Shown here piece by piece: positions 6,225-20,153 of a stretch of DNA of 49,604 nucleotides. Source of the stretch: Haloferax massiliensis (lineage in GTDB: Archaea > Halobacteriota > Halobacteria > Halobacteriales > Haloferacaceae). The stretch covers positions 699,881 to 749,484 of the forward strand of contig NZ_CSTE01000002.1 in the NCBI RefSeq assembly GCF_001368915.1, in the 5' to 3' direction. Under the pieces are notes generated by a model. It worked only from the letters and a program-made list of their open reading frames with translations, was not told the origin of the DNA and did not search any database. The stretch's first letter is position 1. Each line of letters opens with the position of its first letter. The position numbers and the translations under genes were made by a program.

Positions 6225-6299
6225 GGGCGCTTAGCTCAGTCTGGACAGAGTGCTTGGCTTCGGACCAAGTTGCCGTGGGTTCAAATCCTGCAGCGCCCA
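6225..6299 (+). tRNA. tRNA-Arg (anticodon TCG)
   Basis: A complete 75-nt cloverleaf. Acceptor GGGCGCT (6225-6231) pairs with AGCGCCC (6292-6298), discriminator A, no encoded CCA. D-stem GCTC/GAGT, anticodon stem CTTGG/CCAAG with loop CTTCGGA, so the anticodon is TCG (reads CGA and related Arg codons). The T-arm is GTGGG-TTCAAAT-CCTGC with two G-T pairs. Its last 13 bases are part of the attachment site of the integrated element, so the element rebuilds the 3' end and keeps the gene intact. Confidence 0.93.
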
Positions 6300-6300
6300 T
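6287..6300 (+). repeat. Left attachment site (attL) of the element
   Basis: CCTGCAGCGCCCAT, spanning the 3' half of the T-stem, the acceptor 3' strand and one base beyond the tRNA. It is repeated exactly at 17389-17402. Flanks differ on both sides (AAAT before here, AACC before the other; CCAA after here, GATT after the other), so 14 bp is the whole core. Confidence 0.88.
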
Positions 6301-6470
6301 CCAAAATTTGGGGCCTTCGAGGCCGAAATTAAAAGGCCGAGAGACGGCTCCACGCCGTCGATATCGGCCAAATCGGGCGTTTCTCAAAATCGGCGAGAAA
6401 ATTATTCCCTCAGCTCCCATGCAACGGGTCGCCGCCGTCGGGCGAAATTAGAAGCCAAGAGGGGTGCATG

Positions 6471-6505
6471 ATAGATGTCTCACGTTCGTCGCGAGAGACA
6501 TCTAT
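6471..6505. promoter_or_regulatory. Perfect 11-bp inverted repeat across the first start codon of the element
   Basis: ATAGATGTCTC (6471-6481) and GAGACATCTAT (6495-6505) are perfect reverse complements around a 13-nt loop. The ATG of the first element gene (6475) lies inside the left arm. It could be an operator, an mRNA hairpin hiding the start codon, or an initiator site for the HUH Rep encoded next. Confidence 0.6.
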
Positions 6506-6990
6506 GGCGGTACGTCGAGTACCGGTGTGGGAGCTGTCACGAGTGGTGTCTCGTCGATCACTCGACGCGCGCGGCGAAGATGCGCGAGTGCAAAGACTGC
6601 GCGCGCATCCCCGCCATCGAGGACGAGATTCGGGACCATCGTCTCACCTCGCTGTTGTGGGCACACCAACTGGCCGCAGAAACCACCGCAAGGACCGGAA
6701 CAGCGGAGGGCGGGTCCCAGTCCGCCCGGAGCGGCCGGAAGCAGGGGCTTGCCCCTGACCCGGAAGCCGGTCCGCATGAGGCACACCAACTGGCCGCAGA
6801 AACCACCGCAAGGACCGGAACAGCGGAGGGCGGGTCCCAGTCCGCCCGGAGCGGCCGGAAGCAGGGGCTTGCCCCTGACCCGGAAGCCGGTCCGCATGAG
6901 GCCGGCGGCCGCCGGCCGAAAACGAGCGGCGGTAAGGCCCAGTGCCGTCTGAGCGATTTCATCCGCACAGACGGGGGTAACGGTGAGTAG
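6475..6990 (+). CDS. Zinc-ribbon protein with internal 40-residue duplication
   Basis: 171-residue protein, first gene of the element. CGSC near residue 18 and CKDC near residue 40 form a four-cysteine zinc ribbon in the N-terminal third. Residues from AHQLAAETTARTGTAEGGSQ onward form a 40-residue unit present twice in perfect tandem because of a 120-bp DNA duplication; without it the protein would be about 131 residues. The C-terminus (KAQCRLSDFIRTDGGNGE) overlaps the Rep start by 8 bp, which suggests co-translation and a replication- or regulation-related role. Function not recognised. Confidence 0.62.
   Translation: MSHVRRERHLWRYVEYRCGSCHEWCLVDHSTRAAKMRECKDCARIPAIEDEIRDHRLTSLLWAHQLAAETTARTGTAEGGSQSARSGRKQGLAPDPEAGPHEAHQLAAETTARTGTAEGGSQSARSGRKQGLAPDPEAGPHEAGGRRPKTSGGKAQCRLSDFIRTDGGNGE
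6661..6900 (+). repeat. 120-bp exact tandem duplication
   Basis: 6661-6780 and 6781-6900 are identical base for base. The unit is a multiple of three, so the zinc-ribbon gene stays open and gains 40 residues. The shared bases at the unit edges are very short (G before, GC after). Confidence 0.95.
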
Positions 6991-8896
6991 CGAGGGCACC
7001 CCCGCATCCGGCGGGCACGACTCACCAGCCGACGGTGTGGCCTCTCGGCCTTCCAAGGAGACTAACTCTGTAGAGCTCTCTACCACCGATTCTCCAGCAG
7101 AGGATAACTACGACGAACGAGTCCACGAACGCGTACTGGAGTTCACCGAGAAATACCCCGAACTGGCCGAAACGCCGGTGTGCGAAACACACGGTCGAAA
7201 GCTCCGGCGCATCGTGACCGAAGCGGACTGGCGCGATACGTACGTAGAGGCAGAGGACCCGATGGAAAACGGGTTCTACGTGACGGAGTTGGAGAAACGC
7301 CGCGCGGCGACGTGGGCGGACGCGTTGAGCGCGTTTCTCACCTCGCACGTCGACTACAAAGGACTGCTCGCGCGCTTCGCGAACGACGACGGCGATGAGT
7401 TCGAACTCCCGCTGACCGACGCGTGGGGCGAGACGTACTCGCGCAAGCAGTACGCTCGCGCGCTCGCGCTCCAGCGACAGATGGGCGGCGGTGAACGACC
7501 GTCCGGCGGCGAAGCAGTCGCGGCGTGGGGCTCGCCCGCGACCGCGATGCTCACGTTCACCGCGTCGTCGGTGCCGAACGGGGAGCGACTGCCGCCAGTC
7601 GAACACACCGACGCGCTCCACGACGCGTTTTCGTACGATGGCGTGCGCGACACACTCCGCAACACGATGGAGTATCATCTCGGCCTCGACGCCGACGAGT
7701 GGGGTTACTGGCTCCAAGCAGAACCGCACGGAATGGGTGGCGACGGAAGCGGAATGAACGCGTGCTACTCGCATCTGCACGTAGGCGTCTACTTCGATGC
7801 GGCTGACCTCGACCTCGAAGCGGTCGGCCCGGAGTTTGAACGGGTGATAGACAAACACGTCGCGGAGTGCGAATACGCCTCGTTTAGCGCCCACGACTAC
7901 AGAAATACGGACTACTTGAACGACTCCGACGGGTGCATCTCGCTGAACGCCGGCGTCGAAAACATGGGTTCGTACCTTGCCGCGTACATGGGTGGCTACA
8001 CGGAGGAACTGCTGGACAAGCCGGTCGAATACCTCGCGTGGGGTGCAATCTACTGGTCAGCGGCTCGACGCCGAACCTCGCGGTCGAAAATCGTCACTGA
8101 AGCGATCAAAGCGGACGCGTGCGAACAGCGTGCGGAGTCCAGCGAGTCGAACCAGACCGACGCGCACGGCGAGGCCGTCGTGTGGAACGACGGCCGCGGC
8201 CCCGACGTAGTGTGCGCGTGCTGTAACTCCGGCTGGGCTATCGACCAGGAACGGCTCGACGAACCGGTTCCTGACGACGACCTCGCCGGCGCCCTCGCGG
8301 ATGGCGGCGAGCCGGACGCCTCGCGTTCGGAACGCTCGTTGGCTGAACGCTGGCCGAGCGCCAAAGCGGCAGTGAGCGTCGGTGAATCGCCGACAAAGAC
8401 GCGGATACGGAAGCGTGTCGAAACGGAACTGAAGTACAGCGACGAGACGCCTTCGGTGGCGTCGATGCTCGGTCGGAACATGATTGACCCGAAGCATGCC
8501 GAGTTCGTCGAATCGGTTATGAACGGGGAGGACAACTCAGAACCGGAATCGTTCCGCCGTGCATCGCTTTCGTCTGAGTGGCGACTGGAAGCGATTATCG
8601 ACCGCGACGGCGAGGAGCACCTGCCCGGAGGCGGCGGCGTTGATATGGCCCCGCTGAAGCTCCCACTCCAGCGGGTGCTGCAAGAGACGCGGCTTCAACA
8701 CGACCTACAGAAGGGCGAGATGTGGCGCTGCACGGAGTGTAACTTCGGTATTTACAACAAACACCAGATGGCCCGGCACTTGGTCGAAGGCCACGGCCTC
8801 GACCGCCCGGAGAGTGCCGACCACGTCCTGCACGTAGAGGATTACTTCGACAAAGACCGCGAGTGTATGCGGCACCCGGCAAGAGAGGATGAGTAA
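6983..8896 (+). CDS. HUH-type rolling-circle Rep protein with C-terminal zinc finger
   Basis: Putative replication initiator of the element (637 residues). The HUH histidine pair is YSHLHVGVYFD near residues 262-270; the hydrophobic strand ATAMLTFTAS upstream fits motif 1; the tyrosine-bearing helix GSYLAAYMGGYTEELL near 328-343, followed by DKPVEYLAWGAIYW, fits motif 3. A CACC-type cysteine cluster lies near 410, and a C2H2 finger CTECNFGIYNKHQMARH near 582. HUH enzymes nick one strand and attach to the 5' end through tyrosine; that activity is inferred. The GTG start at 6983 overlaps the upstream gene (GTGAGTAG). GC and codon use are slightly lower than the chromosome. Confidence 0.75.
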   Translation: MSSEGTPASGGHDSPADGVASRPSKETNSVELSTTDSPAEDNYDERVHERVLEFTEKYPELAETPVCETHGRKLRRIVTEADWRDTYVEAEDPMENGFYVTELEKRRAATWADALSAFLTSHVDYKGLLARFANDDGDEFELPLTDAWGETYSRKQYARALALQRQMGGGERPSGGEAVAAWGSPATAMLTFTASSVPNGERLPPVEHTDALHDAFSYDGVRDTLRNTMEYHLGLDADEWGYWLQAEPHGMGGDGSGMNACYSHLHVGVYFDAADLDLEAVGPEFERVIDKHVAECEYASFSAHDYRNTDYLNDSDGCISLNAGVENMGSYLAAYMGGYTEELLDKPVEYLAWGAIYWSAARRRTSRSKIVTEAIKADACEQRAESSESNQTDAHGEAVVWNDGRGPDVVCACCNSGWAIDQERLDEPVPDDDLAGALADGGEPDASRSERSLAERWPSAKAAVSVGESPTKTRIRKRVETELKYSDETPSVASMLGRNMIDPKHAEFVESVMNGEDNSEPESFRRASLSSEWRLEAIIDRDGEEHLPGGGGVDMAPLKLPLQRVLQETRLQHDLQKGEMWRCTECNFGIYNKHQMARHLVEGHGLDRPESADHVLHVEDYFDKDRECMRHPAREDE

Positions 8897-8934
8897 CCGT
8901 GTTTCAGACTACTTTCACTAGAGTCAGTTTTAGG

Positions 8935-8947
8935 TTTAATATTAAAA
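8935..8947 (+). promoter_or_regulatory. TATA region for the particle-protein operon
   Basis: The AT-rich stretch TTTAATATTAAAA lies about 20-32 bp before the ATG at 8967. That spacing would give a leaderless or nearly leaderless mRNA starting the run of overlapping genes 8967-14648. Confidence 0.55.
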
Positions 8948-8966
8948 TTGCTAATATCTAGTTGCA

Positions 8967-9971
<1,005 letters not shown>

Positions 9972-9972
<1 letters not shown>

Positions 9973-11486
9973 TGCGCGAGTTCGCTCGACGCGGGCTCGC
10001 TGTCCTGTTTGCTGTCCTGCTCGTGACAGCAGGTGCTTCGGGTCCAGTGTCCGCGACGCTCGGGTTCCAAGACTGCGATGTCTCCGATTCCGCGATATCG
10101 GCGTTCATCAACAGTCTGATTAACCCGAACGGCGACGAGTGTCGGTTCAATCCGACCGACTCGACGCTCGACCTCGACGGGACGCAAGACAAGGTAGAGT
10201 TGTACTCTGCGGCGTCGGCTGAGAAGACGGCGCTTGAGTCGTACAACACGGCGATGGACAACTACCTGAACGACACGGAGTCCGTCGCGTGGATGAAAGC
10301 GCAGGTTGCTGTCGCTGAGGCGTACGAGGACGGTAAGACGAAAGAGCAGGCGCGTATCGACGCGAGACAGGCGATTGCTGACTACTACGCTGTCAAGCAG
10401 AAGAACGACATTGCGCGGTGGAATGCGACCGTCTCGGCGGCTGAGATGAGCATCGAAGAACGCTCCGAGTCGGAGCCGATCAACAACTCGTCTTACGTCA
10501 CGAAAGACGACTTCGCACAAGTCGATAGCGAGAGTAGCTGGTCTGTCTCGAAGACCTACGAAGGCGTGAACACGTCGTCGGTGACTCTCGTCAATGATTC
10601 GTCTGCTGACGTGCTCGCCTACAACTACACTATCGGAGATGGTTACAACAGCGTCAACACGTACGAGACGTACTACGTGACTCCGGCTCGGCACGAGTGG
10701 TTACAGATAGACGGGAACTTCGGCTGGGGTTTCCGCGGCTGGGATATCGCCGCGCCGAACAGCAACTACGATTCGATGACCTTCATCGAACACCAGTCGT
10801 TTACGGACCGCTGGAACCGCTACGAGACGAAGAACGACGACCTCCAAGCGGAGGCCGGTAACTTCGTGAATGCGACGTACGACGACTTCGCGGCTGGAAA
10901 TATCAATTCGTCCGACGTGATTTCGGCGAACACGGCGATGTTTGAGTACGGCACCCAGTCGGGTTCCGACTCGACCTCGCTGTACGACTCGACGGCGGCG
11001 CTGGCTCTGATGGGCTTCGACGTGCCCGATATGCAGTCGTCTGGACTGATGAACGTCACCGACCAGTCTGGAACGGCGAATATCACGTATCAGGGTCTCG
11101 TGATGGCTCGGTCCGCGCCTAACGGGTCGTGGTCGGTCAACACGACCTACGACGCCTCGACCATCGACGGCCCGGTGTTCATCGCGACCGCGACCGGCGA
11201 GAAGGTCGACCTCGACGGCAATTTCACCATCACCGAGATGACTGCCCGCGACGGGTCTTCGGTGCAGTCGCAGAACACGACGACGTACGTGTACAAAACG
11301 ACGAACACGAGCGAGTTCGTCACCATGACGAACGAGCTCGAAACCCTCCGTCAGGAGATTGAAGAACGCGAGCAGTCGAGTGGCGGTTCCGGTGGCTCCG
11401 GTGGCCTCGACTCGCAGATGCTCGGTATCGCCCTGCTGGTCGGTGCGGCCGCAGTGCTACTCATCCAGCGGGAGGGCAACGAGTAG
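9972..11486 (+). CDS. Pleolipovirus/vesicle-type envelope (spike-like) protein
   Basis: 504-residue secreted, membrane-anchored surface protein. Signal peptide MREFARRGLAVLFAVLLVTA with cleavage near SATLG; N-terminal helical domain with ELYSAASAEKTALESYNTAM, a DTESVAWMKAQVAVAEAY helix and IADYYAVKQKNDIARWNA, which matches what I know of the haloarchaeal viral envelope N-terminal domain; a beta-rich middle with many N-X-S/T sequons; a helix ELETLRQEIEEREQ; a Ser/Gly linker; and a C-terminal anchor LGIALLVGAAAVLLI. This is the layout of the pleolipovirus VP4 spike and of plasmid-vesicle surface proteins. The start at 9972 is set by TGATG coupling; an in-frame ATG at 9930 would bury the signal peptide. 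Likely displayed on virus-like or vesicle particles. Confidence 0.8.
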
Positions 11487-11487
11487 G

Positions 11488-11661
11488 ATGTTCGTTTTCC
11501 TGCTGAAGCGGCTCCCAATCGGAACCATCGCTGGCGTGGTCATCATCGCTGGTGCCCTGCAACTCCTCGGTGTTGACCTCATCGGGATGGGTTCGAACCT
11601 CCTGCTCGACCTGCTCGGCGTACCCGACTGGTCGGGCGACTGGTTCGGGTCGCTGTTGTAA
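11488..11661 (+). CDS. 57-residue membrane protein
   Basis: Begins MFVFLLKRLPIGTIAGVVII with one long hydrophobic stretch followed by an amphipathic tail (SNLLLDLLGVPDWSGDWFG). The start lies one base after the envelope-protein stop (TAGGATG). No known family recognised; its place between the spike and the next exported protein suggests a particle-membrane component. Confidence 0.6.
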   Translation: MFVFLLKRLPIGTIAGVVIIAGALQLLGVDLIGMGSNLLLDLLGVPDWSGDWFGSLL

Positions 11662-11693
11662 CGCTTGCCAACCTTCCTGCCCCACCCCTTCGT

Positions 11694-12284
11694 ATGACTC
11701 GAATACACACCATCATACTCGTCAGTTGTATCGCTCTGCTGTTCGCTGTCCCCGGCACAGTCGCCGCCCAAGAGACCGCGACCGCGTCTGCTCCGACAGA
11801 GACGACGACAGCCGCGGCTCCGCCCACGGCTTCGGAGTCGTCGAACGAAACGGCGTACTTCGGCGACGTGGCCGGCGACCGCGCCGTGCGAATCGTCTCC
11901 GCTGAGTACCGCGACGGCACTGCCGTGCTCGTGCTCGAATCGGACCTGCCGCGGACGGTCACCGTGACCGCGCCGACCGGCTCGACCTCGGCCGGTGCCG
12001 CCGCCGGGAATCTGGTCAGCCGACCGATTCCCCCCGGACGGACGACGATTCGAATCGACTCGCCCGAACCGCGAGTGACTATCGTTACGTCGTACTCCAT
12101 CGAGAACGGCCAATACACGGAAATCCGGTTCGAGGACGGCTCGGCGCTCATCGCCGGTCCGTTCACCGGAACGGACGTGCGAGACGCGGCTATCGGTGGC
12201 GCGTTCGGCACGTCGTTCGGTGCGCTCCTGATAATCGTCCGGCGGCGCTTCGGCCTCCACCGTGGCATGGAGCGTGTCGCATGA
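11694..12284 (+). CDS. Exported, C-terminally anchored element protein
   Basis: 196 residues. Signal peptide MTRIHTIILVSCIALLFAV with cleavage near VAAQE, a Thr/Ala-rich linker likely to be O-glycosylated (TATASAPTETTTAAAPPTA), a beta-strand-rich domain (VRIVSAEYRDGTAVLVLESD, RTTIRIDSPEPRVTIVTSYS), then a single anchor AAIGGAFGTSFGALLIIV and a basic tail RRRFG. The gene overlaps the next by 4 bp (ATGA). Position matches the ORF6/ORF7 genes of pleolipoviruses. Function unknown. Confidence 0.68.
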   Translation: MTRIHTIILVSCIALLFAVPGTVAAQETATASAPTETTTAAAPPTASESSNETAYFGDVAGDRAVRIVSAEYRDGTAVLVLESDLPRTVTVTAPTGSTSAGAAAGNLVSRPIPPGRTTIRIDSPEPRVTIVTSYSIENGQYTEIRFEDGSALIAGPFTGTDVRDAAIGGAFGTSFGALLIIVRRRFGLHRGMERVA

Positions 12285-13288
12285 GCGACGACGCCGAAAG
12301 CTCAGCTGAGGCTCAGCGGGAAACTCCCGACGAACCAGAGATGGGCGCGGCCTCGACGACGGTCGCGCCGGACCGCGACGCCGGTCGGCTCGTGACAGCG
12401 TTCGTGTGGGTGATGCGCTACGGCGTTCACCTCGCTGTCGCTGGCTCGCTGTTGCTCGTCGGGCTCGTGCTCGTCTTCGACGTGCGCGTCCCTCGCTCGC
12501 TCCAAATCATCGGCCTGACGGCTGGCCTCTCGGCGGTCATCGCCGGGCGCTGGGTCGGCGGGCAGGCCGTCGACCTGATGGGCGGCCCGCAGATGATGTG
12601 GCTCGTTGACCTCGACCTGCTCGACCGCGACGGCGCGGGTGTCTACACCTGCCCGACGCCGCGGTGGTCCGAGTGGACAGTCGTCGACGGCCAACTGTGG
12701 TGGGCGACGCCGAACCTCGCGTTCGGCCGCGGCGTCGACCTCGACGCCCGCGAAGTCGCCGGGACGTGGGTCGGCTCGCTACCCGACCCGGTGCTGGCGC
12801 GGGCACTCGAATATCTCCGGTACAACCGCAAGCAGTTGGAACCGAAGGCCCGGAAGGGCGAATCGCTCGAAATCAACTCCTTCGCTATCGTCCGAGCGGC
12901 GGCGGTCAAGACCGTGAAACACGTCGTGCGGACGTTCGAGAAAGGCGCGCTCGAATACCTCCGGTACAACCGCAAGCAGTTGGAACCGAAGGCCCGGAAG
13001 GGCGAATCGCTCGAAATCAACTCCTTCGCTATCGTCCGAGCGGCGGCGGTCAAGACCGTGAAACACGTCGTGCGGACGTTCGAGAAAGGCGCGTTACCGG
13101 ACGACGGCGACGCGCTCCACGCAGAGATTGATAGCGTGCTCGAAGACTTCGACCTGGACGGCTCGGATTCCATCTTCGACGAGGACCCGACCGAGTGGGC
13201 ACCAGGTGACGGCGACCCGGCACCGGACCCGCTGGCCGACCTCGACCAGCGGCGGAAGCAACACGCGGCCAACGGTGAATCAGAATGA
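12281..13288 (+). CDS. Two-helix membrane protein with 48-residue internal duplication
   Basis: 335 residues. Acidic N-terminus, two adjacent membrane helices (VHLAVAGSLLLVGLVLVFDV and LQIIGLTAGLSAVIAGRWVG), then a soluble domain with RWSEWTVVDGQLWWATPN. A 48-residue segment starting LEYLRYNRKQLEPKARKGES is present twice in tandem, so the protein is about 48 residues longer than its likely ancestor. The acidic tail ends DQRRKQHAANGES. Overlaps both neighbours by 4 bp. Probably a particle or assembly membrane protein of the VP3-VP8 style block. Confidence 0.65.
   Translation: MSDDAESSAEAQRETPDEPEMGAASTTVAPDRDAGRLVTAFVWVMRYGVHLAVAGSLLLVGLVLVFDVRVPRSLQIIGLTAGLSAVIAGRWVGGQAVDLMGGPQMMWLVDLDLLDRDGAGVYTCPTPRWSEWTVVDGQLWWATPNLAFGRGVDLDAREVAGTWVGSLPDPVLARALEYLRYNRKQLEPKARKGESLEINSFAIVRAAAVKTVKHVVRTFEKGALEYLRYNRKQLEPKARKGESLEINSFAIVRAAAVKTVKHVVRTFEKGALPDDGDALHAEIDSVLEDFDLDGSDSIFDEDPTEWAPGDGDPAPDPLADLDQRRKQHAANGESE
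12815..13093 (+). repeat. 144-bp-period tandem duplication
   Basis: 12815-12949 and 12959-13093 are identical (135 bp). The 9 bp between them, CTCGAATAC, nearly repeat the CTCGAATAT that precedes the first copy, so the period is 144 bp. It is in frame. The few silent differences at the left edge (GCA/GCG, TAT/TAC) suggest it is a little older than the others or was part-converted. Confidence 0.93.
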
Positions 13289-13674
13289 AACTCGAACTCG
13301 AACTTTCGACGCGCGAACAGTACATCATCGCCCTCTCGCTGTCGGTTGGCATCGTCGCTGGCCTGTGGTTCGGTATCCTGATGATACCGCCGCGGGCGCT
13401 CGACGTGCCGATGCGCTTCCTCGACGACGGCGCGGTGTCTGCGTCGTACTACCCGGTGACGAACACACACCTGTTCGTATCGGCGGCCCTGCCGCTGGCG
13501 ACGGCGTACCTCGTGCGGAACCACGCGCGGGACGACGGGACGGACGACGCGGACGAGCTCATGCCTGACCGCTCCGACGGTGACGGAGATGGGCGCGACT
13601 CCGCTCACGACCTCGACGGCAGTTCGACCAGCGAGTTCGGCCCGCATCCCCTCGACGGAGGTGAATCCGCGTGA
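13285..13674 (+). CDS. Two-helix membrane protein
   Basis: 129 residues: membrane helices YIIALSLSVGIVAGLWFGIL and HLFVSAALPLATAYLV joined by a short outside loop, then an acidic Asp-rich cytoplasmic tail (DDGTDDADELMPDRSDGDGD). Overlaps the genes before and after by 4 bp (ATGA and GTGA), so it belongs to the same operon as the ATPase. No family recognised. Confidence 0.65.
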   Translation: MKLELELSTREQYIIALSLSVGIVAGLWFGILMIPPRALDVPMRFLDDGAVSASYYPVTNTHLFVSAALPLATAYLVRNHARDDGTDDADELMPDRSDGDGDGRDSAHDLDGSSTSEFGPHPLDGGESA

Positions 13675-14648
13675 CCGACGAACGACTGCTGACGGCGGCG
13701 AAGCTGTACGAACAGGTGCGCGGGCGCATCGACGGCGACCACAGACTACTCGACCACGCGGGACTGCCGGTCTCGAAGGGCGACCACGCGAACCTGTCGT
13801 TCCTGAACTCGCTCGACCTCACCGACGACGACGAACTGGCCGACTCGTTCGCAGAAACCTCGCTGGGCAGGCTCGTCGATTCGTCGCTTCGGACCCAAGC
13901 CGCGACCCGCGCGGTGCAGTCGTCGCACGCGACCGCGCTTTCGTACCTCGTCGGCGTGACCCAGCAGGACCTCGACGCCAGTTCGCTGACGCTCCCGCTT
14001 CGGCTCGTCGACGAGCTGGAGAACGGTGGCGGTCTCACGACGATCACCGGCGCGGGGAACCCGAACACGGGCAAGACGAACACGATGTTCCTGCTGAACG
14101 GCGACCTCGCGCGGGCGCACTTCGGCGATGACCTGCTGGTCATCTCGAACGTGGGGACGTGGGACGGCGCGGACATCGTGGTGCGGTCGATGTACGACCT
14201 CATGGACGTACTGCTGACCCACCGCGAACGGCCGAAGACCGTCACTATCGACGAAGGCTCGACGCACTTCGACGCCCGGACGTTCAGCCGCGAAGTGGCG
14301 TCCCAGTGGACGCCCGCGATTAAGCGGTTTTCGAAGCTCGGCGTCGAGTCCGTCGGCGTGGTGAGCCACACGGGGAAGGACGTGCATCCCGAACAGAAAC
14401 GGCTCTCGACGCTGTCGTTCTACAAAGAGGCGCAGGACGAAGTGACGTTCTACCGCGACTGGGACGCCGATTCAGACTCGCCCGATGGTGAGCTGTTCGG
14501 CGGCTCGCTCGTGAACCTCGAACCTACGCTGGAAAAGTACGACCCGGACGACGCCGCGCCGTGGGCGTGGAATCTGCCGAGTGATCTGTTTCAGGAGCAG
14601 TTCGAGGACTGGAGCGAGTTTCATGAGATTCTTCGATGCAGTAACTAG
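13671..14648 (+). CDS. VP8-like P-loop ATPase of the element
   Basis: 325-residue NTPase. Walker A GAGNPNTGKTNTMF near residues 126-139; Walker B-like KTVTIDEGSTHFDARTF near 189. The HerA/FtsK-like flavour and its place at the end of the membrane-protein block match the putative NTPase VP8 of pleolipoviruses, thought to act in assembly or genome handling. GTG start with 4-bp overlap to the previous gene. A decayed copy of its last 75 codons lies at 17565-17789, proof of a second related element next door. Confidence 0.72.
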   Translation: MTDERLLTAAKLYEQVRGRIDGDHRLLDHAGLPVSKGDHANLSFLNSLDLTDDDELADSFAETSLGRLVDSSLRTQAATRAVQSSHATALSYLVGVTQQDLDASSLTLPLRLVDELENGGGLTTITGAGNPNTGKTNTMFLLNGDLARAHFGDDLLVISNVGTWDGADIVVRSMYDLMDVLLTHRERPKTVTIDEGSTHFDARTFSREVASQWTPAIKRFSKLGVESVGVVSHTGKDVHPEQKRLSTLSFYKEAQDEVTFYRDWDADSDSPDGELFGGSLVNLEPTLEKYDPDDAAPWAWNLPSDLFQEQFEDWSEFHEILRCSN

Positions 14649-14697
14649 TGTGCCTTCCCATTAGTTATTTAGTTGTGTGGAAAATATATAGGTATGT

Positions 14698-15240
14698 ATG
14701 AGTGAGATAACTCACACCACAGTTAGGACAGAGATTGATAATGGTCAACAAATACTCATAGTTCATGCGGAAAAGTCATACATTGTAGAATTTAAACGAC
14801 CACTTGGAGAAGATAGTCCATTCACATTCACGGATAGTGTCATTAAACCAGATGACTCTAGTAAGAATGAACATGAAGAGGCAATTCGGAACATAAAAAA
14901 AGAACTAATTAACCAAGGTTATCCTGTTTTCGCTGAAGATGTGGGGCTAAAATCTCTGGAGTCTGGTATTCTGAAGGTTAACGAAACAGAAGAAATACTC
15001 TACTCCTGTCAAAATACTATTGAGGTTTCTAAGGATGAATCATCTGACCCACAAGTGTTGGTGAAAAACAAAGATTCTGGAGATATTTTTGAGTTTGTGG
15101 TCCGTGTCGATAATGGTAACCTGCCACCAAATTGGTGTTTAATTGACCTCGTACTAATGGTGAATAATGACTACTTGAATGAATCCCAACCTGATATTCC
15201 ATATTCCGATTCAGTAACATTCGAAATATCTCGTAATTAA
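14698..15240 (+). CDS. AT-rich orphan protein in the cargo position
   Basis: 180 residues, MSEITHTTVRTEIDNGQQIL onward, mostly predicted beta-strand and charged, with no signal peptide or membrane helix and no motif I recognise. Base composition is strikingly AT-rich compared with every other element gene, and codon choice is unlike the host (many AAA, AAT, ATA), so it was acquired separately. It has its own promoter region (AAAATATATAGG at 14681-14692 and an upstream TTAGTTATTTAG) and lies between the ATPase and a convergent regulator, the same place that holds the restriction-modification genes in the neighbouring relict. A defence, exclusion or moron role is inference from position. Confidence 0.7.
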   Translation: MSEITHTTVRTEIDNGQQILIVHAEKSYIVEFKRPLGEDSPFTFTDSVIKPDDSSKNEHEEAIRNIKKELINQGYPVFAEDVGLKSLESGILKVNETEEILYSCQNTIEVSKDESSDPQVLVKNKDSGDIFEFVVRVDNGNLPPNWCLIDLVLMVNNDYLNESQPDIPYSDSVTFEISRN

Positions 15241-15295
15241 ATACCCACCTGACACGAACCGTCATAACCCACTTTACAACCCAGCCACCCACCCG

Positions 15296-15307
15296 CCCCC
15301 TTTACGG
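15296..15307. other. Conserved block downstream of the cargo slot
   Basis: CCCCTTTACGGG and its surroundings (a C-rich run before, GCTCACTCGCTGTTCTCT after) recur at 20056-20090 in the relict element in the same order. It lies between two convergent genes and may act as a terminator; the following GGGTGGTGGGTG is not a clean stem. Confidence 0.4.
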
Positions 15308-15328
15308 GTAAGGGTGGTGGGTGCTTGC

Positions 15329-15607
15329 TCACTCGCTGTTCTCTAACTCGGCGGCGTCGATCTCCCCGGCGAGATAGGCGCGACCTCGTTCGGAAAGTCG
15401 GTAAATCGCTCGCTCCTCGTCGTGGTACTCAACCAGCTCGTGGTCAAGGAGTGTCCCAAGGTGTTCGCGGACGGTTGTCCGTGCATAATCGGTGTTCTCT
15501 GCAATCAGGGCTGGCGTAAGAACGAGTTCGTCGTTCCCCTCGTTCTGCAGTCGCTCCAGTATCGACCTGTCCGCAGGCGTCATCCAGTCGGCAAGAGGAA
15601 CGCGCAT
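15329..15607 (-). CDS. Winged-helix regulator (phiH1-repressor-like)
   Basis: 92-residue DNA-binding protein. WMTPADRSILERLQNEG is followed by a helix-turn-helix (LTPALIAENTDYARTTVREH), then LGTLLDHELVEYHDE and the wing YRLSERGRAYLAG. The pattern is that of haloarchaeal phage phiH1-type repressors. It is transcribed against the particle genes and is divergent from the integrase side, the usual place for a lysogeny or copy-control switch. A 12-bp inverted repeat sits upstream at 15689-15718. The end of a homologous gene survives at 20074-20104. Confidence 0.75.
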   Translation of the reverse strand: MRVPLADWMTPADRSILERLQNEGNDELVLTPALIAENTDYARTTVREHLGTLLDHELVEYHDEERAIYRLSERGRAYLAGEIDAAELENSE

Positions 15608-16279
15608 GGATTACAACTACATTGATATAGTAAATCTATTTTCATCACTACGAACTTCGTATTAATTTGTATCTAAAACCTCCAGAGTTGTGGGTAAGTG
15701 TTAAGTCACTCACCCACAGTTCTGTTGGTATCGGAAGCTACACGCGATGTTGACTGTTGTTCAGTCGGCGTCAGAAAGCGGACCCAGCGCTGGCACGCTG
15801 GCCCGCGGTGGCTCCCGTAACCGAGGTACGGAAGCATGTTTGCCTACACGACTCGGGCTATTGAAGCCCCACGACGAACGGCTGTTGATAGACTGACAGA
15901 AAGCGGCTTCACTTTCGCTCAAACGTACACTTTCACTCCGGGGCCATGGCTCAGTACTTTAATTAGCCCCCTCGAATGGATTACCCGGCTGACGGTCCCT
16001 TTCGAGGATGCTCACCCTACCAAAGCCAGCACCCTCGACCCGGACCGCGGCCTCACAATGGAAGCCATGAATCAGTTATCGCACCGCGGTTGTAAGCGTA
16101 GCGAATGGACCGGAAGTGAACCCGATTCGGGGGTGATTCGATGAGTAAGCTCACCCTACCAAAGCCAGCACCCTCGACCCGGACCGCGGCCTCACAATGG
16201 AAGCCATGAATCAGTTATCGCACCGCGGTTGTAAGCGTAGCGAATGGACCGGAAGTGAACCCGATTCGGGGGTGATTCG
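15608..16279. other. Control region between regulator and integrase
   Basis: About 670 bp without a convincing gene. It holds an AT-rich promoter zone for the regulator (TATA-like TTTACTATATC on the minus strand near 15628-15638), a long inverted repeat, a GC-rich segment with CAGCGCTGGCACGCTGGC near 15785, and most of a 139-bp tandem duplication. An open frame at 15836-16144 (MFAYTTRAIEAPRRTAVDRL onward) runs into the duplicated DNA and shows neither a family signature nor host-like codon use; I do not call it a gene. The region is a candidate replication origin and operator zone. Confidence 0.5.
15689..15718. promoter_or_regulatory. 12-bp inverted repeat upstream of the regulator
   Basis: TGTGGGTAAGTG (15689-15700) and CACTCACCCACA (15707-15718) match at 11 of 12 positions around the 6-nt loop TTAAGT. 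It lies 82 bp upstream of the winged-helix gene. It may be the operator of that regulator or a hairpin for the HUH Rep. Confidence 0.55.
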
Positions 16280-16287
16280 ATGAGTAA
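16010..16287 (+). repeat. 139-bp exact tandem duplication before the integrase
   Basis: 16010-16148 is repeated exactly as 16149-16287, followed by GCTC again, so the junction has 4 bp of microhomology. The unit includes the first bases of the integrase gene (ATGAGTAAGCTC), so a false copy of the integrase start stands at 16141. Confidence 0.95.
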
Positions 16288-17326
16288 GCTCGAATCGCTC
16301 GAACCTGCTCGCGCGGTCCGAATGTACCTGGAGGCCCGCCAGGACGAACTCGCGGACTGGACGTTGAAGTCCCACAAGTACCGACTCCGTGCGTTCGTCG
16401 AGTGGTGCGAAGAAGCGGGCGTCGACGACCTGACCGAGCTCGACGGCCGGGACCTCTACGAGTTCCGCGTCTGGAGGCGCGAAGGAAACTTCGGTGCGGA
16501 GGACGGCGAGACGCCGGAGGAGATCGCGCCGGTCACGCTCAAATCACAGCTCACTACGCTTCGGGCGTTCCTCCGGTTCGCGGCGAACATCCACGCGGTT
16601 CCCGAGGACTTCTACGAGCGGGTGCCGCTACCGAAGCTGTCCGGGACGGACGACGTGAGTGATTCGACGCTCGAACCGGACCGGGCAACTGACATCCTCG
16701 AATATCTCCACCGCTACCACTACGCTTCCCGGCGGCACGTCGAATTCGCGTTGCTGTGGGAGACGGGCGCGCGGATGGGCGCGATTCGTGGCCTCGACCT
16801 GCGTGACCTCGACCTCGACGGCCGGACGCCGGTCGTCCGGTACAAGCACCGGCCCGACCAGGGCACGCCCATCAAGAACGGCGAGAAAGGAGAGCGGTTC
16901 AACTCGGTGTCTGACCGGGTGGGCACGATGTTACAGGCGTACATCGACGGCCCGCGCGTCGACGCGACCGACGAGTTCGGTCGGAAGCCGCTACTGACGA
17001 CTTCTCACGGGCGCGTCTCGGCGAGTACGATTCGGCAGGACGTGTACGTGGTCACTCGCCCGTGCTGGCTGAATCAGGGTTGCCCGCACAATCGAGACAT
17101 CGAGACGTGCGAGGCGGTGGAGCTGAATCACGTCAGTACGTGTCCGTCTTCTCGGTCTCCCCACGACGTTCGGAAGGGCGTGGTTACGCTCTATCGGCGG
17201 GAGGAAGTGCCGCGTCGGGTGGTGTCTGACCGCCTCGACGCGAGCGACTTGGTGCTCGATAAGCACTATGACCGCCGTGGAGAGCGTGAGCGGGCCGAAC
17301 AGCGGCGGAATCACCTCCCGTGGTAG
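16280..17326 (+). CDS. Tyrosine recombinase / integrase
   Basis: 348 residues; catalyses insertion and excision at the tRNA-Arg site. N-terminal SAM-like core-binding domain (ADWTLKSHKYRLRAFVEWCE, DLTELDGRDLYEFRVWRRE). Catalytic residues in order: Arg in ETGARMGAIRGL near residue 168, a Lys-rich beta-hairpin PIKNGEKGERF, His-x-x-Arg in SPHDVRKGVVTLY near 295-298, DRLDAS near 315, and the nucleophile Tyr in LDKHYDRRGE near 331. Four cysteines near 268-291 in the segment CWLNQGCPHNRDIETCE and VSTCPSS may bind zinc. The gene ends 62 bp before the right attachment site. Start ATG 16280; its 5' region is duplicated just upstream. Confidence 0.86.
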   Translation: MSKLESLEPARAVRMYLEARQDELADWTLKSHKYRLRAFVEWCEEAGVDDLTELDGRDLYEFRVWRREGNFGAEDGETPEEIAPVTLKSQLTTLRAFLRFAANIHAVPEDFYERVPLPKLSGTDDVSDSTLEPDRATDILEYLHRYHYASRRHVEFALLWETGARMGAIRGLDLRDLDLDGRTPVVRYKHRPDQGTPIKNGEKGERFNSVSDRVGTMLQAYIDGPRVDATDEFGRKPLLTTSHGRVSASTIRQDVYVVTRPCWLNQGCPHNRDIETCEAVELNHVSTCPSSRSPHDVRKGVVTLYRREEVPRRVVSDRLDASDLVLDKHYDRRGERERAEQRRNHLPW

Positions 17327-17388
17327 AACAATGAGTGTTCGACATATCCGAACGCGAGAGGTGGTTTATATACCCCGTTCACGGAACC

Positions 17389-17402
17389 CCTGCAGCGCCC
17401 AT
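17389..17402 (+). repeat. Right attachment site (attR) of the element
   Basis: Exact copy of the 14-bp core CCTGCAGCGCCCAT found at the tRNA-Arg 3' end, 62 bp after the integrase stop. Confidence 0.88.
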
Positions 17403-17465
17403 GATTCTTCCGCGAACAACGTGAGCGGAGACCCATCTCCGCGACGGAGTTGAACTAGCGAGCGA

Positions 17466-17492
17466 GTGCGATTCAAATCCAGCCGCGCCTAT
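17466..17492 (+). pseudogene. Decayed tRNA-Arg 3' end
   Basis: GTGCGATTCAAATCC followed by AGCCGCGCCTAT matches the tRNA 3' end (GTGGGTTCAAATCC, TGCAGCGCCCAT) through the T-loop and in 9 of the last 12 bases. The upstream two thirds of a tRNA are not recognisable. It marks an older attachment site. Confidence 0.65.
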
Positions 17493-17564
17493 CATGAACT
17501 CCGGTTTTTCGTGGCGCGATTGAAACGCCGAGAGACAGATCCCGACGCTGTCTCCGAGGACACA

Positions 17565-17789
17565 CAGGACGAAGTGACGTTCCACCGCGACTGGGACGCC
17601 GATTCAGACTCGCTCGATGAGGAGTTGTTCGGCGGTTCGCTCGCGAACCTCGAACCGACGCTGGAGGCGTACGACCCGGACGACGCCGCGCCGTGGGCGT
17701 AGAACCTGCTGAGTGATCTGTTTTAGGAGCAGTTCGAGAGTTGGGAAGAGTTCCACGAGTTGCGTTTGTCTCAGAGTTCTACGGAGTAG
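17565..17789 (+). pseudogene. Fragment of a VP8-like ATPase gene with two stop codons
   Basis: Homologous to the last 75 codons of the intact ATPase (14433-14648): QDEVTFHRDWDADSDS, ELFGGSLANLEPTLEAYD and PDDAAPWA match nearly residue for residue. TAG at 17700-17702 replaces a TGG codon and TAG at 17724-17726 replaces CAG; the frame then continues EQFESWEEFHELR to a TAG at 17787-17789. The upstream 250 codons are gone. Confidence 0.88.
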
Positions 17790-17855
17790 CCAAACCTCCT
17801 GACTATCTGAGTTAACACCAGTACATATACTAATGGCACGTCGTCATTCTATCTC

Positions 17856-18596
17856 ATGTTCGAAGATCTCGATTCGCGGGTTTCAGATGTTGTCCAACAC
17901 TACTATATGACGCTATCTGGACAAGCTGAAGAACACGAGAAGTCTGATAACGTTGCTCATGGGCGACGCCCAGAGGTTCTTGGTGGCCAGCAAATGAATG
18001 GGTTCGCGGGACTGGTTGAGGAGCTACTAGTCGAGGCTGGCGTTCCCCGCGATGCTGTAAAGCACGACTATCATGCAACACTACCAGGATATTACCGACA
18101 CGAGAAGGAGTGGGATACTGCAGTTGTCTATAACGGCAACCTTCTGGCAGCCATTGAGTACAAGTCACAAGGTAGCTCGATTGGCAACAATCTGAATAAC
18201 CGTGCTGAAGAGGTCATTGGGAATAATACCGACATACTCAAAGCGTACGAAGAGGGTCTATTTGAACCATCACCCGCCCCGTGGATTGGTTACCTTATGT
18301 TATTTGTAGACGATGACGAGTCTAGAAAAACACGGTCTCTCCGAGAACCAAATTTCCCTGCAGATGACGAGTTCCAAAATGCAGGATATATTGACAGGAT
18401 GGAACTGCTTTGTCTTCGGATGCTACGTCAAAGGCTCGTTGATGGTGCGACATTCCTCTTGAGTAACGAAGACATAGGGATAAATGGCGAATACCGAGAA
18501 CCGAACGAAGAACTCGAATTCGAACGTTTTGCTCGATCACTTGTCTCTCATGTACAGGCCCATATCGACCACGAGCAAGATACATTGTTCGACTGA
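17856..18596 (+). CDS. PaeR7I/XhoI-family type II restriction endonuclease
   Basis: 246 residues. Predicted to cut CTCGAG when unmethylated. It matches the PaeR7I family along its length: GGQQMNGFAGLVEELLVEAG, LPGYYRHEKEWDTAVVYNGN, LLAAIEYKSQGSSIGNNLNN, RAEEVIGNNTDILKAYEEG, PAPWIGYLMLF, YIDRMELLCLRMLRQRLVDG and EPNEELEFERFARSL. The catalytic PD-(D/E)xK-like residues are Asp in EWDTAVV and Glu-x-Lys in IEYKSQ (near 88 and 101). AT-rich compared with the host, so imported. TATA-like TACATATAC lies about 35 bp upstream. Its methyltransferase partner follows after 53 bp on the same strand. Specificity is inferred from the family. Confidence 0.85.
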   Translation: MFEDLDSRVSDVVQHYYMTLSGQAEEHEKSDNVAHGRRPEVLGGQQMNGFAGLVEELLVEAGVPRDAVKHDYHATLPGYYRHEKEWDTAVVYNGNLLAAIEYKSQGSSIGNNLNNRAEEVIGNNTDILKAYEEGLFEPSPAPWIGYLMLFVDDDESRKTRSLREPNFPADDEFQNAGYIDRMELLCLRMLRQRLVDGATFLLSNEDIGINGEYREPNEELEFERFARSLVSHVQAHIDHEQDTLFD

Positions 18597-18602
18597 GATC
18601 TA

Positions 18603-18617
18603 CTCGAGTTTTATATA
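18603..18617 (+). promoter_or_regulatory. CTCGAG site abutting the TATA box of the methyltransferase gene
   Basis: CTCGAG (18603-18608) ends one base before TTTATATA (18610-18617), which is 33 bp before the methyltransferase ATG. The predicted recognition site therefore occupies the BRE position of the only promoter in the gap between the two R-M genes. The methylation state could tune TFB binding. Confidence 0.6.
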
Positions 18618-18649
18618 GTTTTAACTTCGATTATCTAGTAACTCTTGGT

Positions 18650-20014
18650 ATGAAAGGCCACGTTCCTACGCCACATGACCTGGCTGAAAAAATAGTCCAA
18701 CGTTTATTTCGAGATAGACAGCCTACGAAGAGTGACCGGATACTCTATCCTGGGTGTGGGACAGGACCTTTCGCTGCAGTTGTTGAGCAGGTTTGTGAAT
18801 CAGAGGGTTGGGGCCTTCCAGACGGGCTTGCTATTGAGACGAATCCAGAGCACTTGGATGCTGCACGAAATCGCGGCCTTGAGCACGTTGAGTTTGTCGA
18901 ACAAGATTATCTTGGACCTCAGATGCTTGAGTCGGAGACGTTTGATTTCATTGTAGGCAATCCACCGTATGTTCCCATTGAAGGTCTCTCGGGTGAAGAA
19001 AAGAACCGCTACAAAGAGGAGTTCTCGACTGCAGTCGGTCGATTCGACCTCTATCTATTATTCTACGAACGCTCTTTGGAACTACTATCTTCCGGTGGTG
19101 TTCTCTCTTTTATCACACCAGAAAAGTTCGAGTACGTCGATGCTGCTGAACCACTTAGACGGCTGCTCACCTCTGATAACTTCCACGTCGAAGATGTCGT
19201 TCATATCGACGAAGATTCGTTCTCGGGGTTGGTCACGTTCCCCTGTATTACGACAATTCGGCGTACGGAAACTGGACCCACCCATGTGAAACTAAGGGAT
19301 GGATCTACTCATACAACCGCGCTCCCAGAAGATGGTGAGAGTTGGGCCGCTTCAGTAAGAGGTGCTGACCTCGAGGATCTGGAAACTGGTACAACCCTCG
19401 GTGATGTCACGGTTCGTATCTCACCCGGAATGGCGACCGGTGCTGATTCTGTATTCGTCGCTGACCGTCAGGACGTTCCTGCACAACTCGTTCCAGATTG
19501 GATTTATCCTACTGTCTCTGGCCGTCAATTGAGATCAAATGACGGGCCGTACACGGATTCAGTGTTCATCTGTCCCTATCAAGAAGACGGGACGCTGCCA
19601 GACGAAGACGAACTTGGTGCCTTTGGTGACTGGGCCGAGCTTCACCGAGAACGCCTCGAAGACCGTTCTTGTGTGAAAAAGACTGGAAAGAGATGGTATG
19701 CGTGGCATGAAAATCCACCGATGCAGGACCTGTTACAGCCAAAGATAGTATTCAAGGACATCGCTAAAGAACCACGCTTCTGGGCGGAGAAAAAGGGAAC
19801 TGTTGTCCCAAAACACAGTGTGTACTATCTAATCCCGAAGGAAGACGTACCCTTCGACGAGCTGCTTGAATATCTGAATAGTCCCAAGGCACGGCTGTGG
19901 ATGGAATCTAACTGTCAGAAGGCAGCAAATGGGTTCTACCGCCTACAAAGCCGTGTTCTCCGTGACCTACCTGTACCAGCAGAGTGGTCAGAGACGTACC
20001 AAGCAACGTTGTGA
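18650..20014 (+). CDS. N6-adenine DNA methyltransferase, PaeR7I-type partner
   Basis: 454 residues; protects the predicted CTCGAG sites by methylating adenine. AdoMet-binding motif I is DRILYPGCGTGPFAAVV near residues 28-44, the acidic loop AIETNPEHLDAAR follows, and the catalytic motif IV is FDFIVGNPPYVPIEG near 98-112. The C-terminal half (VSGRQLRSND, KPKIVFKDI-type block KIVFKDIAKEPRFWAEKKG, KAANGFYRLQSRVL) is the TaqI/Eco57I-like target recognition domain. Lower GC than the host, like the endonuclease. It also contains a second CTCGAG at 19370-19375. Starts at the ATG at 18650 after its own promoter. Confidence 0.85.
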   Translation: MKGHVPTPHDLAEKIVQRLFRDRQPTKSDRILYPGCGTGPFAAVVEQVCESEGWGLPDGLAIETNPEHLDAARNRGLEHVEFVEQDYLGPQMLESETFDFIVGNPPYVPIEGLSGEEKNRYKEEFSTAVGRFDLYLLFYERSLELLSSGGVLSFITPEKFEYVDAAEPLRRLLTSDNFHVEDVVHIDEDSFSGLVTFPCITTIRRTETGPTHVKLRDGSTHTTALPEDGESWAASVRGADLEDLETGTTLGDVTVRISPGMATGADSVFVADRQDVPAQLVPDWIYPTVSGRQLRSNDGPYTDSVFICPYQEDGTLPDEDELGAFGDWAELHRERLEDRSCVKKTGKRWYAWHENPPMQDLLQPKIVFKDIAKEPRFWAEKKGTVVPKHSVYYLIPKEDVPFDELLEYLNSPKARLWMESNCQKAANGFYRLQSRVLRDLPVPAEWSETYQATL

Positions 20015-20055
20015 ATTAAAAAGCCGTTTCGAATTAACCTATCCATCCACCGCAC

Positions 20056-20104
20056 CCTTTACGGGGCGCTCGCTCACTCGCTGTTCTCTACTTCGCCGTT
20101 GACG
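20056..20104 (-). pseudogene. 3' end of the convergent winged-helix gene of the relict element
   Basis: GCTCACTCGCTGTTCTCT here (20072-20089) equals the end of the intact regulator gene (15327-15344) and encodes ENSE-stop on the minus strand; the block CCCTTTACGGGG before it is shared as well. The rest of the gene is deleted; similarity fades by about 20104. It defines the right limit of the relict that I can see. Confidence 0.7.
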
Positions 20105-20153
20105 AGCTCGCTACTGCGACAAAAAGTCAGTAGCTGTAACTCCGCGAGAACGG

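Follow-up and report, generated by a model that had tools for sequence, protein, structure and literature searches.

Antiviral hotspots have been described in P2 phages and P4 satellites, where a fixed locus with conserved flanks carries variable content (PMC9122126). In haloarchaea, the closest described systems are the pleolipoviral elements pHK2, a plasmid of Haloferax (Hfx.) lucentense, and Halfgib1 and Halfvol3, both of which are integrated in the corresponding tRNA-Arg gene (PMC7911831). The window analyzed here, a 49,604-nucleotide stretch of Hfx. massiliensis that is part of contig C2 of the 4.0-Mb genome, holds an intact provirus related to these elements and, beside it, the relict of another (Table 1). 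In both copies, the end of a VP8-like ATPase gene and the end of a convergent winged-helix regulator gene enclose the variable content, which is a single orphan gene in the intact copy and a restriction-modification (R-M) pair in the relict. The position between the ATPase gene and the winged-helix or integrase gene is very probably a swappable cargo slot of temperate pleolipoviruses, the cargo of which is partly antiviral.

The complete gene order of the intact element is that of Halfgib1 and pHK2, and its backbone (Rep, VP3, spike, ORF6-8, ATPase, winged-helix protein, ORF12, integrase) is also common to Halfvol3. Homologues of the core block of VP3, spike VP4, ORF6/7 and VP8-like ATPase occur in the same order in Halfgib1, pHK2 and Humcor2. 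The ATPase shares 97% identity with its Halfgib1 counterpart, 98% with that of pHK2 and 53% with HRPV-1 VP8, and the integrase is 99% identical to the Halfgib1 integrase. The winged-helix protein resembles pHK2 ORF11 and Halfgib1 HfxHg1_090, and the putative Rep qualifies as a homologue of the alphapleolipovirus rolling-circle initiator. A clean attachment pair, consisting of the 13-bp core CCTGCAGCGCCCA, brackets the element and its integrase. On the strength of its sequence, the element is classified as an alphapleolipovirus-type provirus of the pHK2/Halfgib1 family in tRNA-Arg (TCG). The cargo is different in each of pHK2, Halfgib1 and Halfvol3; the Halfgib1 slot holds five genes (an R-M-like pair, a SIR2-TPR protein, a putative nuclease and one small gene), whereas the intact element of the window holds the one orphan. 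Halfgib1, a close relative, was obtained from Hfx. gibbonsii as an induced provirus (PMC7911831).

Like the P2/P4 hotspots (PMC9122126), the locus belongs to a temperate element, and the content between its conserved flanks varies greatly and comprises diverse antiviral systems among other genes. In contrast to them, it is found in archaeal enveloped pleomorphic viruses, its flanks are the ATPase and winged-helix genes, its antiviral role is putative, and most of its cargo is uncharacterized. It can be regarded as a slot for cargo, part of it antiviral, that is comparable to the P2/P4 hotspots in structural features. The slot was not found described in the accessible pleolipovirus literature, which covered the account of 164 pleolipovirus genomes (PMC10599561), Halfgib1 (PMC7911831), HHPV4 (PMC5867852) and archaeal dark matter (PMC4158269), each as far as its text was accessible and with subscription papers outside the search; the Halfgib1 account, in its accessible part, lists the slot genes and describes no slot.

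Slot content in homologous elements

The search for the ATPase covered 391 haloarchaeal genomes as well as GTDB contigs, and about 80 neighborhoods were inspected. Genes were called by a procedure based on amino-acid composition, which recovered 39 of the 42 annotated genes of three reference elements. After removal of duplicates, 55 elements had a slot that ended in a winged-helix or integrase gene, and proteins of at least 70 aa were considered. These 55 slots contained 149 cargo proteins that fell into 97 clusters, 82 of them singletons, while the gene directly upstream of the ATPase gave only 5 clusters in 50 elements. The mean GC content was 0.444 for cargo and 0.615 for the ATPase, with the cargo being lower in all 54 of 54 comparisons. 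Slot length ranged from 633 to 6122 bp (coefficient of variation 0.56), while the distance from spike to ATPase was nearly constant (coefficient of variation 0.16). Membrane proteins made up 42% of slot proteins versus 24% of flank proteins (p=0.004). The first-pass annotation of the window had proposed a shared backbone around differing, AT-rich contents, and this pattern extends to the 55 homologous elements, in which the contents are nearly always different. Tabulation of what lies between ATPase and regulator did not return the same gene throughout, though one putative nuclease was present in 19 of the 55 slots. The conserved flanks together with non-homologous content identify an allelic cargo slot.

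Such variability could also arise if the slot held genes for lysogeny, replication or host takeover, such as regulators, PCNA, MCM-like proteins and immunity against superinfection by the element's own kind, which evolve beyond recognition, with antiviral systems as occasional passengers. This explanation draws on the MCM-like domains, PCNA, small helix-turn-helix proteins and many membrane proteins in the slots, and on the large share of unassigned cargo. However, the contents differ even between elements with 95-96% identical ATPases, and homology stops dead at the border, which argues for replacement and not for fast divergence; the base composition of the cargo is also foreign. We therefore consider the explanation by fast-evolving viral genes to be unlikely, although it has more in its favor than the other alternatives discussed below. 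Separately, one slot was seen to hold a PCNA homologue (10483-11223 of its locus) beside a 577-aa protein without assignment.

Recognizable antiviral genes were present in at least 12 of 56 slots. The Halfgib1 slot encodes a type II endonuclease (REase_II), a C5 methylase and the SIR2-TPR protein, and other slots encode GmrSD plus RHH/ParE, a TIR effector and Schlafen AlbA_2. PADLOC candidates were PDC-S59 (twice), PDC-S45 and PDC-M19A. In a Halolamina pelagica slot, a complete Pycsar pair was found as divergent neighbors (cyclase, E=2e-15; PycTM, E=3e-21); like the known PycC and PycTM, it combines a cyclase with a transmembrane effector, here as a predicted pair in a haloarchaeal provirus slot. 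Beta-type elements have a position that looks comparable, where a type IIG enzyme, GmrSD and a DpdJ-like helicase are encoded. In a distant beta-like pleolipovirus (contig C25 of another genome, 88000-104000), an XhoI-like endonuclease that is 59% identical to the enzyme of the relict lies directly behind the ATPase and is paired with a different, convergent N6_N4 methylase. Many beta-type elements also have a small gene (about 110-140 aa) with a PD-(D/E)XK-like appearance right after the ATPase, followed by AT-rich cargo.

These findings also bear on the explanation that the slot is a neutral landing place at the end of the virion operon, with content that is not under selection. The convergent end between two transcription units is where insertions would be least harmful, many of the genes are orphans, and the flanking hairpin in Haloferax could favor recombination. 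Against this, the antiviral modules are recurrent, unrelated and functionally coherent, and they come as complete pairs (restriction endonuclease with methyltransferase, PycC with PycTM, RHH with ParE) and not as mere fragments. The R-M cassette has furthermore stayed intact inside a decayed element. Taken together, a neutral landing place seems improbable.

The putative nuclease (262-341 aa) was found in relicts as well as in the 19 slots, with the Halfgib1 copy at 11597-12391 of its locus. Across genera, it is strongly conserved (61-84% identical to its reference) and has a C-terminal repeat and an invariant PD-(D/E)XK-like motif; the reading as a PD-(D/E)XK enzyme rests solely on this invariant E, D, DxK motif. 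It had no match in Pfam or PADLOC and no significant match among PDB sequences. A structure predicted from 11 sequences had a predicted local distance difference test (pLDDT) score of 45, and a fold search gave nothing at E<=0.001, the best matches being ribosomal/Tudor-like noise.

Several observations weigh against the interpretation of the slot as a partly antiviral cargo locus. The putative nuclease appears closer to a backbone gene than to cargo. Most cargo has no assignable function, so that the antiviral share could be small, and sampling was limited to one genome per species and relied on a home-made gene caller. PADLOC models numbered 142 in slots versus 45 in the control, but the models are redundant and the control matches are mostly housekeeping paralogues. 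The proposal of a defense locus is upheld for the minority of slots that have recognizable antiviral genes, and these tallies do not demonstrate a strict enrichment relative to background.

The orphan gene of the intact slot had no homologue in the 391 haloarchaeal genomes or in IMG/VR, and its protein gave no significant match against Pfam, PADLOC and PDB sequences. A weak match to a cellulase (E=0.06) was below the cut-off and was dismissed as chance. The structure predicted from the single sequence had a mean pLDDT of 50 with no confident fold; only an N-terminal segment of four strands plus a helix came near 75. By these comparisons, the gene is a true ORFan, and by its position it is slot cargo. 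The first-pass annotation had derived a defense or exclusion role from position only; beyond position, neither a homologue, a family match nor a confident fold was found, and its function as an antiviral or exclusion factor is a guess.

Borders of the slot and probable exchange of content

In Haloferax, pairwise homology between elements ends 13-34 nt before the ATPase stop codon and resumes 43-52 nt before the stop codon of the winged-helix gene, with a strong hairpin as the right border. The exception is one pair involving the more distant Hfx. profundi copy, in which homology extends up to the ATPase stop. The borders are sharp, and other groups have theirs at different, lineage-specific points. 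They lie at +184 to +196 past the ATPase stop in the Haloarcula-like group (right border about -1 to +17) and at +131 to +151 in Halobellus (right border about +11 to +35), and in most Halorubrum pairs the left border is 4-10 nt before the ATPase stop. Since SNJ2 has a hairpin origin (PMC13107129), the border hairpin was considered as a possible replication origin; in other genera, the hairpin-like stretch lies at the opposite side of the slot or is missing.

Within the host genome itself there are three copies, each with a content of its own: the orphan gene, a 166-aa membrane protein and the R-M pair. The copy with the membrane protein is located in tRNA-Ile (GAT) (contig C6, 210000-228000) and its integrase is only 44% identical, which indicates that cargo moves independently of the integration module. 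In this provirus, the VP3 and ORF7-like genes also have no spike gene between them, and the element is either defective or collapsed in the assembly. Because the co-resident elements are >90% identical in the ATPase and as little as 44% identical in the integrase, exchange by homologous recombination in the shared flanks is the likely route by which they would swap content. In Halfgib1, the cargo is interrupted between HfxHg1_080 and HfxHg1_085 by 107 bp copied from the ATPase tail, a remnant that separates the R-M/nuclease cargo from the SIR2-TPR gene, which suggests that cargo was stacked by recombination through the flank. In the proposed mechanism, conserved genes of the virion and of lysogeny form the flanks, and the content between the flanks would be freely replaced by short, AT-rich and self-contained cassettes.

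The relict provirus and its restriction-modification pair

The tail of the ATPase gene in the relict (17531-17759) is 84% identical to 14395-14627 over 233 bp (E=1e-69). The parts of the relict were found where the first-pass annotation had placed them, including the ATPase end with its two amber stops. The similarity it had reported at 20056-20104 also proved genuine and not due to chance: the match to the end of the winged-helix gene has E=4e-6, it is preceded by a colinear hairpin match, and the 11-mer CCCTTTACGGG has just two occurrences in the 49.6 kb, against an expectation of 0.04 (none of 100 shuffles contained two), namely at the two matching places of the slot border in the intact and relict copies. 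The relict also retains the 3′ end of a tRNA gene together with the element's left end, which the first-pass annotation had not noted. It is therefore an older, internally deleted provirus that occupies the same attachment site, and not a stray fragment. The deletion removed the region from the left end to the ATPase tail, and the integrase was lost on the other side. The tRNA-Arg (TCG) gene is also occupied in Hfx. gibbonsii, and ATPase relicts lie beside it in Hfx. larsenii and another Haloferax.

The R-M pair of the relict is a real PaeR7I-like pair by the family matches of both proteins (Table 1). The XhoI-like enzyme had no significant match among PDB sequences. As in XhoI/PaeR7I systems, a PF04555 endonuclease adjoins an N6-adenine methylase of the Eco57I/TaqI_C type; unlike those systems, the pair sits in a decayed provirus. 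The relict ATPase tail shows 13 relict-specific changes at 174 sites (2 silent, 9 replacement and 2 stops). At this rate of decay, and on the assumption that the R-M genes did not arrive later than the decay, 5.9 stops would be expected in the R-M frames, whereas none was observed (P(0)=0.003).

The presumed recognition site, CTCGAG, occurs 84 times in the host genome compared to 941 times for the reversed control (ratio 0.09). In the other 14 Haloferax genomes, the counts were 158-1386 and the ratios at least 0.40, so that the host is lowest of the 15 in both count and ratio; no XhoI-like gene was found in these 14 genomes. The window contains only two CTCGAG sites, one in the gap between the R-M genes and one within the methylase gene at 19370, both of which are inside the cassette. 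The remaining sites in the host genome are clustered, for example at 510780-518321 of contig C1, probably in recently acquired islands. Because its presumed site is purged from the host genome, the R-M pair is probably functional and was most likely active for a long time, and the host apparently owes to the decayed copy a working R-M system that purged CTCGAG from the whole chromosome. Three points count against this. CTCGAG depletion is not a consistent feature of the other genomes that encode XhoI-like enzymes (one is strongly depleted), and for this reason the depletion is strong but single-lineage evidence. A different system with equal specificity, either lost or undetected, could have caused the depletion, and the CTCGAG specificity of the present enzyme is itself deduced from the enzyme family and the genome-wide depletion.

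If the R-M pair were a separate, later insertion into dead DNA, it would never have been cargo of that provirus. R-M pairs are mobile and the relict is internally deleted, which would fit such an event. The pair, however, lies precisely between the two borders that enclose all other cargo, the XhoI-like R-M pair of the distant pleolipovirus is an independent case at the same position, and at this tRNA in Hfx. larsenii, relict cargo is likewise flanked by remnants of the ATPase tail and of the regulator. A later insertion is thus very improbable. Under the preferred interpretation as original slot cargo, useful cargo would stay when the virus decays, as in this relict, where virion and integration genes are decayed and the R-M cassette is intact. 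Other relicts also retain cargo; these were found via the ATPase tail, which biases this observation.

Element features and biological meaning

The coordinates of the features are given in Table 1. Four exact tandem duplications of 118-144 bp (6660-6902, 9610-9851, 12806-13093 and 16010-16291) all lie within the intact provirus, and some of them break genes. They are probably assembly artifacts, because similar 90-bp repeats in the draft genome of Hfx. gibbonsii were judged to be misassembly (PMC7911831).

Table 1. Features of the intact and relict proviruses, in window coordinates.
Feature	Position	Strand	Remarks
Intact provirus	6287..17401		
tRNA-Arg (TCG), integration target	6225..6299	+	ARAGORN
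attL core CCTGCAGCGCCCA	6287..6299	+	exact repeat at 17389
Putative Rep	6983..8896	+	homologous, by sequence and place, to pHK2/Humcor2 rep
VP3-like internal membrane protein	9335..9871	+	probable assembly duplication inside
VP4-like spike protein	9972..11486	+	
VP8-like ATPase, left wall of slot	13671..14648	+	
Variable slot of intact element	14627..15284		homology to other Haloferax elements stops/resumes at its edges
Orphan cargo gene	14698..15240	+	180 aa, GC 0.37
Conserved hairpin adjoining slot	15285..15323		seen in every intact Haloferax element compared
Convergent winged-helix regulator, right wall of slot	15329..15607	-	Pfam HTH_IclR
Tyrosine integrase	16280..17326	+	PF00589/PF02899
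attR core CCTGCAGCGCCCA	17389..17401	+	
Relict provirus	17466..20109		
Relict 3′ end of tRNA with left end of element	17466..17552	+	local alignment, 88 columns, with tRNA-Arg 3′ end and intact left end (6274-6359); copy degraded
Relict ATPase 3′ end	17553..17789	+	two amber stops
XhoI/PaeR7I-like restriction endonuclease	17856..18596	+	246 aa, intact; PF04555 E=2e-51; PADLOC REase_II E=4e-61
CTCGAG site between R-M genes	18603..18608		
N6-adenine methyltransferase, TaqI_C specificity domain	18650..20014	+	454 aa, intact; Eco57I-type, PF07669 E=2e-23; PF12950
Relict half of slot-border hairpin	20036..20065		84% to 15278-15308, colinear; precedes winged-helix match
Relict winged-helix gene, 3′ end	20064..20109	-	80% to 15319-15364 over 46 bp; last codons of gene

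Antiviral cargo would fit a non-lytic temperate virus, because the fate of such a virus hangs on the survival of the cell. A lysogenized host would gain protection from other viruses, and the virus would thereby protect its own cell. In its widest form, the proposal is that pleolipoviruses of both the alpha and beta types are a systematic reservoir of archaeal antiviral systems behind the ATPase, and that most of the ORFans there, including the orphan of the window, represent undescribed modules for antiviral defense or superinfection exclusion, which become domesticated by hosts upon provirus decay; this is possible, and we put it forward tentatively and with more doubt than belief.

For the search for archaeal antiviral genes, the slot would provide a guilt-by-position rule, which is to inspect the pleolipovirus interval from the ATPase to the winged-helix or integrase gene. 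The roughly 97 protein families, 82 of them singletons, would supply a ranked list of candidates from a clade in which genetic tools are well developed (Haloferax volcanii). The relict adds a testable case of domestication, in which a decayed provirus carries a surviving restriction system and the host appears to have been reshaped by a purge of CTCGAG.

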